A model generated the notes under the pieces. The model did no database searches and was not told the origin of the DNA. It saw nothing but the letters and a program-made list of their open reading frames with translations. Made by a program: the position numbers and the translations under genes. Below, one piece after another: positions 48,280 through 52,855 of a stretch of DNA of 64,000 bases. This stretch comes from Arthrobacter humicola (GTDB lineage Bacteria; Actinomycetota; Actinomycetes; Actinomycetales; Micrococcaceae): the NCBI RefSeq assembly GCF_022803015.1, contig NZ_JAFKON010000007.1, positions 1 through 64,000 of the forward strand, written 5' to 3'. Position 1 is the first letter of the stretch, and each line of letters opens with the position of its first letter.

Positions 48280-48300
48280 GGCATCGCTCCTTCTAAAAGT

Positions 48301-48364
48301 GGATATCTCGATTTTAGAGGGCCCCACGGGGATTAAGCAATGATTCTTGTTTTTAGAGATATTC
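48301..48364. promoter_or_regulatory. Paired inverted GAGATAT sites between doxX and its regulator
   Basis: GGATATCTC at 48301-48309 and GAGATATTC at 48356-48364 are inverted copies of one 9-base element. TTTTAGAG occurs beside each (48312-48319 and 48351-48358). One copy overlaps the -10 box of the regulator gene, the other sits next to the doxX ribosome-binding region. This is the layout expected of an autoregulated divergent operator. Confidence 0.6.
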
Positions 48365-48365
48365 T
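48360..48365 (+). promoter_or_regulatory. Leaderless -10 box of HTH regulator gene
   Basis: TATTCT, six bases before ATG 48372, overlapping the right-hand GAGATATTC site. Confidence 0.55.
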
Positions 48366-48371
48366 TGTGTC

Positions 48372-49142
48372 ATGACCAAGCTTCCGTGGAACCACAGGCT
48401 GGCGGCGGTCGCGTCGCTGGGAGACGAGAGCCGCAGGAGGCTGTTTGATTTCGTCGCCTCAGCGGCAGATGCCGTTGGCCGGGACGATGCCGCGCAGGCT
48501 GTGGGCCTGGCGCGGAGCACTGCCTCGTTCCATCTGGACCGGCTCGTGAAAGACGGGCTGCTGGCCGTGGAGTTCCGCAAGCTCGGAGGGCGGGAGGGGC
48601 CGGGGTCCGGCCGGCCCGCCAAGCTGTACCGGGCCGCCGTGGATGAGGTCGCGGCCTCGGTGCCCGACCGCCACTATGATCTCGCCGCCGAGCTGCTGGT
48701 GTCCGCGATCGAGGACGCAACCAGCGGCGGCGGTTCGCCGCGGGAGGCCCTTCTTCGGGCTGCCCGCGCCAGGGGGCAGTCAGCGGGTGAGTCGGCAGCC
48801 CGCGCAGCCGGCCGCGAGCCGGCGGGGGCCACCGGGGCGGGGCCTGCGGACTCCGCCGGCAGCCCCGATGGCGCCGGCCCGTTCGCGGACTTCCTGGCGG
48901 GGCAGGGCTACTGCCCGGCGGACGACGGCGGCGGGGGACTGGTGCTGCTGAACTGCCCGTTCCATCGCCTCGCCGCCGGGCACGCAGACGTGGTGTGTGC
49001 CATGAACGGAGCTTTTCTCGGCGGGGCCTCAATGGCCCTGGGGATCGAACCGGGCCGGATCGAAGCGCTCGCCATTGAAGATCTCAGGGAGCACGGCGGC
49101 GCGCGGCCCGGGCAGTGCTGTGCCCGTATTCTTCCATCGTGA
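48372..49142 (+). CDS. Cysteine-rich winged-helix transcriptional regulator
   Basis: 256 residues. An ArsR/SufR-like winged helix fills about 10-95 (GDESRRRLFDFV, then AVGLARSTASFHLDRLVKDGLL). A middle Ala/Gly-rich linker follows. The C-terminal domain has Cys181, Cys195 (NCPFH), Cys209 and the pair Cys249-Cys250. The 13-residue gaps between the first three suggest an iron-sulfur cluster or another metal site and hence redox or metal sensing; no ligand can be named from sequence. It diverges from doxX, which it probably controls. The last 59 bases overlap the converging DMT transporter gene. Confidence 0.82.
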   Translation: MTKLPWNHRLAAVASLGDESRRRLFDFVASAADAVGRDDAAQAVGLARSTASFHLDRLVKDGLLAVEFRKLGGREGPGSGRPAKLYRAAVDEVAASVPDRHYDLAAELLVSAIEDATSGGGSPREALLRAARARGQSAGESAARAAGREPAGATGAGPADSAGSPDGAGPFADFLAGQGYCPADDGGGGLVLLNCPFHRLAAGHADVVCAMNGAFLGGASMALGIEPGRIEALAIEDLREHGGARPGQCCARILPS

Positions 49143-51478: not shown

Positions 51479-51520
51479 TCCAGGAGCTGATCCAGTAGCT
51501 AATCCAGGAGCTGATCCAGG
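51473..51520. repeat. 12-bp tandem repeat at converging gene ends
   Basis: Four 12-bp units alternating AGCTAATCCAGG and AGCTGATCCAG(T/G). The iscS stop (51476-51478) falls in the first unit and the oxidoreductase stop (minus strand, 51499-51501) in the third. The repeat extends the minus-strand coding end as LDQLLD. Confidence 0.9.
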
Positions 51521-52737
51521 GGTACCGAGGAGTCGGCAAGCAGGCCCGGGCTCACGGCGGTGCGGGCATTGATGAGCGCCTTGATCGCCTTCTGCGGCTT
51601 GGCGGCCCGGGGCCAGTTGACATTCATTCCGGCGATCACCTGGCCTTCTCGCTGCCAGAAGGCAATGAACTCCTTGTCCGCAAGCGAGCCGCGGATGACC
51701 GGCGGGCCGGCAACGAGCGTCGGGAAGCCCGAGTACTCCATGCTGACGTCGTACTGGTCCGTGTAGAAGTACGGGATGCTGTCCAGCGTGGCGTCGAGGC
51801 CGAGCATCGCCTTGGCTGCCACCTTGCCGCCATTCAGGGCATTGGACCAATGCTCGCTGCGGTGGTGTTCCCCGGTGAACGGGTGCAGGGCGTTGGCGAC
51901 GTCGCCGGCGGCGAAGATCCCGGGCGCCGAGGTCCGCAGCGACGCGTCGGTGAGGATGCCGTTGCGGATCCCGAGCCCGGCCGCCTCGGCCAGACCGACC
52001 TCCGGCACAACGCCGACGGCGATGACCACGAGGTCGGCGGGCAGGACTTCGCCCGAGTCGGTGACCACCGCCGTCGCCCGTCCAAACCACCCCTGAATCT
52101 CGGCAGCGGACGCCGGAAGCCTGAACCGTACCCCGTGGGCCTCGTGCAGCCCGCGGAAGAAGCCGCCCAGGTCCGGGCCAATCGCCGCGCCCAGCGGCAC
52201 GTCCTCCAGCCCCATCAGGGTGACGGTGTTTCCAAAGGTGCTGGCGGCAGCGGCCAGTTCCATCCCGATCCAGCCGGACCCGACCATGACCACGTGCAAA
52301 CCGCCGCCGGCGAGGCGGGCGTGCAGACGCCGGCTGTCTTCGACCGTCCGGAACGTGCTGACGCCCTCGAGCCCGCTGCCGGGCAGCGGGATGGTCCTGG
52401 GCCGCGCTCCCGTGGCAAGCAGGAGTGAGCCGTACTCCAGCCGCCGCCCGTCATCCAGAACCACGGCGCGGGCAGCCGGGTCCAGCGCCGTGACCTGGAC
52501 GCCGAGCCGGAGGTCGACGTCGTTCGCGTCGTACCAGTCCTCGGGCACCACCGGCAGGGCGTCGTCGCCGGCCTTGCCCAGCAGGTACTCCTTGGACAGC
52601 GGCGGGCGCAGGTACGGCTGGTGGGACTCGGCGGCCACCAGCACCACCGGACCGCTGAAACCCTCCGCCCGCAATGTTTTGGCGGCGGTGGCGCCGGCCA
52701 GCCCGCCGCCCACGATCACGATGTTCCCGACAGCCAT
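51499..52737 (-). CDS. FAD-dependent ferredoxin/rhodocoxin reductase-like protein
   Basis: A 412-residue pyridine-nucleotide-disulphide-family flavoprotein. The FAD-binding Rossmann motif is at the N-terminus (IVIVGGGLAGATAA), the NAD(P)H-binding motif in the middle (VVMVGSGWIGMELA), and the second FAD contact later (APGIFAAGDVA). The segment PYLRPPLSKEYL is typical of rhodocoxin, putidaredoxin and related ferredoxin reductases. No redox-active disulfide is present. It passes electrons from NAD(P)H to a ferredoxin, perhaps for a P450 or dioxygenase not in this window. It converges with iscS. Confidence 0.9.
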   Translation of the reverse strand: MAVGNIVIVGGGLAGATAAKTLRAEGFSGPVVLVAAESHQPYLRPPLSKEYLLGKAGDDALPVVPEDWYDANDVDLRLGVQVTALDPAARAVVLDDGRRLEYGSLLLATGARPRTIPLPGSGLEGVSTFRTVEDSRRLHARLAGGGLHVVMVGSGWIGMELAAAASTFGNTVTLMGLEDVPLGAAIGPDLGGFFRGLHEAHGVRFRLPASAAEIQGWFGRATAVVTDSGEVLPADLVVIAVGVVPEVGLAEAAGLGIRNGILTDASLRTSAPGIFAAGDVANALHPFTGEHHRSEHWSNALNGGKVAAKAMLGLDATLDSIPYFYTDQYDVSMEYSGFPTLVAGPPVIRGSLADKEFIAFWQREGQVIAGMNVNWPRAAKPQKAIKALINARTAVSPGLLADSSVPLDQLLD

Positions 52738-52826
52738 GTCCGCTCGATTCCCGCGTCGGCGCGCTTCCGTTTTCTAAAACCGCTTGTCCTGACGCTAGAA
52801 GGGGGAGGCGGTCCCGTCAAGGCCTT

Positions 52827-52855
52827 TTGGGGAGGAATCGGCGTGGCGATAGAAT
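52827..52855 (+). promoter_or_regulatory. Candidate promoter of mnmA
   Basis: TTGGGG (52827-52832), a 17-base spacer and TAGAAT (52850-52855), about 138 bases before ATG 52994. The leader in between shows no recognisable riboswitch. Confidence 0.45.

Follow-up and report, generated by a model that had tools for sequence, protein, structure and literature searches.

We consider it likely that a SufR-related, probably iron-sulfur (Fe-S), autorepressor of Arthrobacter humicola also represses the genes for a DoxX-like membrane protein and a ferredoxin reductase, acting through copies of the dyad TCTAAA-N15-TTTAGA. The DNA side of this proposal is well supported by sequence comparison, and from it and from homology to SufR we infer the binding, the cofactor and the signal. 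The window, i.e., the whole 64,000-nucleotide stretch of DNA that was analysed, is the start of contig C77 in a genome of 4.7 Mb, and the features discussed here are collected in Table 1.

From 47.8 kb onwards the gene order is a doxX-like gene (-), the regulator (+), a transporter (-), a cysteine desulfurase (+), a ferredoxin reductase (-) and mnmA (+). When ranked by the regulator, the closest named loci belong to Arthrobacter strains with 81-95% identity, among the best 80 of 425 relatives. The name doxX serves here as a working label; against the Pfam DoxX model the protein gives 19.3 bits (E 0.0018), which does not reach the gathering score of 23.6. The reductase exceeds the gathering scores of both Pyr_redox_2 (211.3 bits, gathering 26.1) and Reductase_C (48.3 bits, gathering 25), and reaches no NCBIfam equivalog cut-off among the models listed. 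The transporter beside the regulator looks EamA-like on a by-eye reading. At the far end of this group, the real start of mnmA seems to lie at about 52994, the upstream GTG not being the start, and a TAGAAT box at 52850-52855, similar versions of which are mostly kept in the relatives viewed, would imply a leader of about 130 nt.

Table 1. Genes, candidate operators and promoter boxes of the doxX-regulator-reductase region, in window coordinates.
Feature	Position	Strand	Remarks
Regulator, 256 aa, winged helix and Cys-rich C-terminal part	48372-49142	+	Distant SufR homologue
DoxX-like membrane protein, 142 aa	47851-48279	-	Pfam DoxX below gathering score; match in 75/81 loci
Ferredoxin reductase-like flavoprotein	51499-52737	-	Pyr_redox_2 and Reductase_C
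OL, dyad over doxX -10 and start	48292-48318		At most 1 mismatch in 73/81 loci; top window score, 41.4
OR, degenerate dyad in regulator promoter, also over doxX -35	48331-48357		Third window score, 10.4
O3, dyad (2 mismatches) over reductase -10	52773-52799		Second window score, 18.9
CAA-N6-TTG inside OR	48338-48349		67/81 loci; reminiscent of SufR site CAAC-N6-GTTG
doxX -10, TAAAAT, in right OL arm	48311-48316	-	TAAAAT in 73/73 loci with OL
doxX -35, TTGCTT, 18 nt from -10, in OR	48335-48340	-	TTG box at 16-18 nt in 71/73 loci
Regulator -10, TATTCT, 6 nt before ATG 48372	48360-48365	+	TAnnnT with gap 6 in 36/68 loci
Reductase -10, TAGCGT, in O3	52792-52797	-	TAnnnT with TTGAC 17-18 nt upstream in 62/62 O3 loci
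Reductase -35, TTGACG, 17 nt from -10	52815-52820	-	TTGAC box in 62/62 O3 loci
Left 9-mer of the original prediction, GGATATCTC	48301-48309	+	Variable centre of OL, at predicted doxX start
Right 9-mer of the original prediction, GAGATATTC	48356-48364	+	End of OR and part of regulator -10

The original prediction took the operator to be an inverted pair of 9-mers bearing GAGATAT, GGATATCTC and GAGATATTC, each with TTTTAGAG next to it. Both 9-mers exist in the window and are adjoined by TTTTAGAG (48312-48319 and 48351-48358), and the genome has 13 copies of GGATATCTC. A search for the paired site in related doxX-regulator loci, set in advance as a test able to refute this reading, found it not to be conserved. 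Among 81 loci (the window plus the best 80 of 425 relatives, which as a result of this choice are close and non-independent), GATATCTC is present in one, the window itself, GAGATAT in 10, and both in one. Conservation thus rules out the inverted GAGATAT pair as the operator; the presence of both copies in the window speaks for this reading, to which we give virtually no credence. The conserved signal in the compared loci is instead the TTTTAGA beside the 9-mers, within the 27-bp dyad TCTAAA-N15-TTTAGA. The idea of inverted sites that are common to the two divergent promoters and overlap them was borne out, as was the proposal of a Cys-rich, possibly redox-cofactor-binding regulator, encoded alongside, as the likely binder; what had been missed is the third copy of the dyad, at the promoter of the reductase, and that the regulator is related to SufR. 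Overall, the observation was partly confirmed and its interpretation partly supported, with the motif corrected and the regulon enlarged.

The heptamer TTTTAGA occurs four times in the window, versus 0.44 expected and with none of 100 shuffles reaching four; three copies lie in the doxX-regulator intergenic region and one at the reductase promoter, 4.4 kb away. Across the 1,005,508 bases of the 81 loci the exact dyad is found 116 times with a spacing of 15, and never with spacings of 8-14 or 16-22. The reductase copy, O3, sits about 4 kb from the doxX-regulator region, and in the 63 loci that hold a reductase it carries zero, one, two or three mismatches in 45, 8, 9 and 1 cases, respectively. 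When a symmetrised matrix built from OL and O3 was applied to the remaining positions of each locus, OR ranked first in 71/81 and among the top three in 80/81; since it was picked as the best among no more than 38 positions, we estimate the chance of this at well under 1% per locus, and somewhat more given that the region is AT-rich. With the window's own clade omitted from training (8 loci), the best three 27-mers in the 64 kb were OL, O3 and OR, in that order, and the fourth-best score was -2.8. Two of 200 shuffles reached the score of OR, and the best shuffle, at 18.9, about equalled O3. A plain pattern scan allowing three mismatches returned the same three sites against 1.32 expected, with at least three sites in 14 of 100 shuffles. 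On the evidence of the window by itself, both O3 and OR are modest candidates, to which the relatives lend credibility.

Comparison by eye of the regions upstream of the regulators in 109 of 110 loci (L024 is without an N-terminus), including distant paralogues of the same genomes, gave mostly TTCTAAAA-N13-TTTTAGAA towards doxX and TTAAGCAATG-N4-TTGTTTTTAGAG towards the regulator. Several listed genomes have a second dyad where the reductase gene begins, some 3-4 kb away from the regulator; this was noticed by eye and then tested. The shorter CAA-N6-TTG, at first favoured as the operator via SufR, was demoted as a stand-alone candidate, given the longer dyad common to OL and O3 and the fit of OR to the matrix. 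A scan of the window's own genome allowing two mismatches returned 14 sites, versus 25 for a reversed control; as OL and O3 alone among these 14 exceed a matrix score of 0, no further target is claimed in this genome.

Two other observations were made during these scans. A palindrome of another kind, CCTAAATAGGAAT-N-ATTCCTATTTAGG or near variants of it, is found in the same genome (C77:145275-145301) as well as in L271 and L273, and is probably the site of another regulator. Extra copies of the dyad lie near locus position 1500 in L161, L176 and L270; those of L161 and L176 precede first a frame of some 16 codons and then one for a membrane protein that starts MDWQGW, and in L270 an MDWQGW start is likewise found downstream.

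The geometry of the promoter boxes was assessed in 73/81 loci for doxX, in 62/63 for the reductase and, for the regulator, in the 68/81 loci in which the mapped N-terminus is a start codon. The conserved spacing places OL and O3 over the -10 box and the predicted transcription start, and the doxX -35 box inside OR. We would expect transcripts to begin near 48304 for doxX (-), 52785 for the reductase (-) and 48372 for the regulator (+). The right-hand site had been thought to cover the regulator -10 box; OR ends 2 bp before that box, and covers the doxX -35 instead. The same -10 box had been read as the signal of a leaderless transcript, which is supported in part. A TAnnnT box close to the start is indeed favoured among the 68 loci, with a gap of 6 nt (36 loci) or 5 nt (5 loci); the other gaps up to 44 nt account for 0-3 loci each, except for gaps of 12 (22), 31 (6), 11 (5) and 36 (4). 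With other in-frame starts allowed, a near-start TAnnnT is present in 55/81 loci and absent in 26/81, and a Shine-Dalgarno-like stretch precedes some candidate regulator start in 33/81. In M. tuberculosis the principal -10 motif is TANNNT (PMC3898074), and to take the distance between -10 and start codon as meaning a leaderless start is a plausible inference of our own. On these grounds the regulator mRNA of the window's clade probably begins at the ATG, and leaderlessness, considering the 26 loci without the box and the 33 with a Shine-Dalgarno-like stretch, would be limited to a part of the group that includes this clade. In one subgroup (L247, L249, L255, L258, L265, L267, L268 and L269), OR reads TCTATAATCAAGAGATCTTGACTTTGG or close to it, with a perfect TATAAT inside, and a Shine-Dalgarno-like stretch lies before the start; we read this as a switch from a leaderless to a leadered transcript at the same operator position.

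Copies of the dyad appear to be mostly retained or lost together with their genes. None of the 6/81 loci that are without a doxX match has an intact OL (L203 has a decayed OL, the other five none). A doxX match is kept in L202 and L213, which have no intact OL; in both, extrapolation of the match places its start within the regulator, and the 5' end of doxX thus seems to be gone. A second exact dyad was found in none of the 18/81 loci without a reductase (one of which is a 3-kb contig), and as 13 of these 18 still hold mnmA, O3 belongs to the reductase and not to mnmA. An exception is L224, which keeps the regulator and O3 and has lost OL and OR. At the level of the genus, the dyad is present in 124 of 150 genomes, mostly as one or two sites each, compared with one of 150 for the reversed control. 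Of the 150 genomes, 120 have both the regulator and the dyad and 24 have neither, with the regulator alone in two and the dyad alone in four, the absence of the regulator having been inferred from the list for eight genomes. For two of the four dyad-only genomes (G080 and G107) the site is another, unrelated palindrome; in the other two (G027 and G118), whose assemblies are 68% and 63% complete, the sites look right by eye, and no regulator was found in the genomes or within 3 kb around the sites. The doxX-like protein was detected in none of the 28 regulator-less genomes, with positive controls recovered in 2/2, and a displaced doxX in none of the 14 genomes that lack one beside the regulator, with 2/2 controls found in a separate search. 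Adjacency makes the co-occurrence of doxX and regulator partly trivial, and it is the reductase site and the co-losses that carry weight.

A profile search of the order at E 1e-15 gave matches in 32/297 genomes, six of them from the same genus and the weakest possibly from another family. Of the 30 loci, 18 were used outside the genus, omitting the window's own, five of the same genus and six with weaker matches. Allowing spacings of 13-17, and with some matches carrying 3-4 mismatches, the best dyad upstream of the regulator beats all 172-184 control windows in 17/18 loci, a test that is flattered by control windows that are largely coding and GC-rich. In L129-L133 this dyad lies at the place expected for OR. 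The spacing is 16 in 13/18 of these loci (L128-L144) versus 15 within the genus, and seems to have shifted once with lineage. A doxX match lies nearby in 8/18 and a reductase match in 10/18, reductases being a large family. In L099 and L102-L105, where the regulator has distant paralogues of about 40% identity, a similar dyad with TTGAATTTAGA or a near variant lies upstream of the paralogue, which suggests a sister regulon.

The regulator itself has a winged helix at about residues 19-88, which scores 26.1 bits with HTH_20, just under the cut-off of 27. Five C-terminal cysteines had been pointed out and are present (C181, C195, C209, C249 and C250), of which C195, C209, C249 and C250 are kept in 105-107 of 108 homologues (108 of 109 loci, L106 being too short), and C181 in just six. 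A further cysteine occupies the column of residue 223 in 77/108 homologues, where the window's regulator has leucine. An AlphaFold model reached a mean pLDDT of 79.6 and a pTM of 0.59, and the Foldseek matches were for the most part winged-helix proteins, all of them weaker than E 0.001. Comparison by hhalign of 44 homologues with 12 actinobacterial SufR-like proteins gave a probability of 97.4 and an E of 1.2e-11 over 187 columns, spanning both the winged helix and the C-terminal part. The alignment pairs NCPFHRL with HCPIQHL and GQCC with GHVC; C195 and C250 align with SufR cysteines, and C209 is one residue off register (C-x13-C versus C-x12-C). When searched against the genome at E 0.001, the SufR model TIGR02702 gave three matches, the window's regulator not among them, which is a weak test of this protein since the model is cyanobacterial and none of 59 genomes of the order passes its cut-off. 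Another SufR-like protein is encoded elsewhere in the same genome (TIGR02702 E 5.3e-20, below the cut-off of the model), and the gene that follows it reads as sufB by eye. The window's regulator is a relative of SufR, and not SufR itself.

In the mechanism we propose, a dimer of the regulator would bind the dyads through its winged helix and block RNA polymerase, with repression expected to be strong at doxX and at the reductase and weaker at the regulator's own gene. The positions of the sites argue for repression, OL and O3 lying over the -10 box and start, and OR over the upstream half of the regulator promoter and the doxX -35, so that OL and OR would both act on doxX. The conserved C-terminal cysteines may hold a [4Fe-4S] cluster, as homology to SufR suggests, and loss or oxidation of the cluster, e.g., under oxidative or nitrosative stress or iron shortage, would free the DNA, as carried over from SufR. 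DoxX and the reductase would then rise together as a redox response. Ferredoxin reductases move electrons. In M. tuberculosis, DoxX belongs to a membrane-associated oxidoreductase complex that has a link to mycothiol redox buffering (PMC10501769). Such a complex and an electron-moving reductase together make a redox-stress output plausible.

Several other explanations were considered. One keeps the dyad as the regulator's operator and has bare cysteines sense metals or thiol oxidation in an ArsR-like manner, with no Fe-S cluster. We hold it to be unlikely: the match to the SufR profile is full-length and includes the Cys-rich end, the ArsR/SmtB model gives 22 bits versus a cut-off of 55, and the winged helix contains none of the conserved cysteines, even though this helix is ArsR-like in sequence and fold, 106-107 of 108 homologues retain the CC pair, and the extra cysteine of the LCQGHC motif of SufR is absent here.

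Less likely again, and in our judgement clearly improbable, is that the dyad is the site of another transcription factor, or a special promoter class, with the regulator a mere neighbour or co-target. Some conservation would follow from promoters alone, as the arms contain -10 boxes, and no regulator was detected in G027 and G118, which have sites. However, just one arm of the two overlaps the -10, and the other arm and the exact N15 are not promoter features; moreover, the site is absent in 24/28 regulator-less genomes (two of the other four having another palindrome), a copy lies in the regulator's own promoter, and outside the genus the best dyad is again upstream of the regulator in 17/18 loci. 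A third alternative sees the dyad beside doxX as a hairpin in the leader RNA of that gene, masking the Shine-Dalgarno sequence. It draws on the last arm abutting the GGAG of doxX, and was rejected on promoter geometry as extremely unlikely: going by the conserved promoter, transcription starts within the dyad and would leave out the first arm, and at the reductase 35 nt separate the end of the dyad from the start codon.

Beyond the SufR-related autorepressor with its three sites, a wider reading seems to us evenly balanced, namely that in actinobacteria of this order a non-suf branch of SufR serves as a dedicated Fe-S redox sensor with its own type of operator, driving a membrane DoxX/ferredoxin-reductase electron-transfer module, joined in some genomes by a further membrane protein, with the SufR of the suf operon in the same cell. 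If this holds, SufR-like sensing through an Fe-S cluster has been put to use for genes other than those of Fe-S cluster assembly. The regulon would also connect a ferredoxin reductase with a DoxX-type protein, a kind of protein that is poorly understood, and so give a handle on what such proteins do. We noticed no paper on this regulon among the matches listed from open-licence PubMed Central papers.

Among known systems, the ArsR/SmtB family has a similar winged helix, and SmtB, CzrA and ArsR are among the top Foldseek matches, all of which are weaker than E 0.001; the window's regulator differs in scoring 22 bits with NF033788 versus a cut-off of 55, and in its long extra C-terminal part, which bears the conserved cysteines. 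SufR is the repressor of the suf operon in cyanobacteria, Mycobacterium, Streptomyces and Corynebacterium. It is a [4Fe-4S] repressor with the site CAAC-N6-GTTG and the cysteine pattern C-X12-C-X13-C-X14-C (PMC8593673), the M. tuberculosis protein requires the three cysteines C203, C216 and C244 (PMC6034842), and the site overlaps the -10 region in Streptomyces avermitilis and is almost conserved in Corynebacterium glutamicum (PMC11995493). The window's regulator shares with SufR the N-terminal winged helix and the Cys-rich C-terminal part (NCP...C...CC here, HCP...C...HVC in SufR), and a site at its own promoter, with autoregulation predicted here. The CAA-N6-TTG of OR, found in 67/81 loci, also resembles the SufR site CAAC-N6-GTTG (PMC8593673, PMC11995493). 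On the other hand, the LCQGH cysteine of actinobacterial SufR is missing here and a CC pair is present, there are no suf genes among the neighbours (doxX-like, transporter, cysteine desulfurase, reductase and mnmA), the OL/O3 operator is the longer TCTAAA-N15-TTTAGA and not CAAC-N6-GTTG, and the predicted targets are doxX and the ferredoxin reductase.
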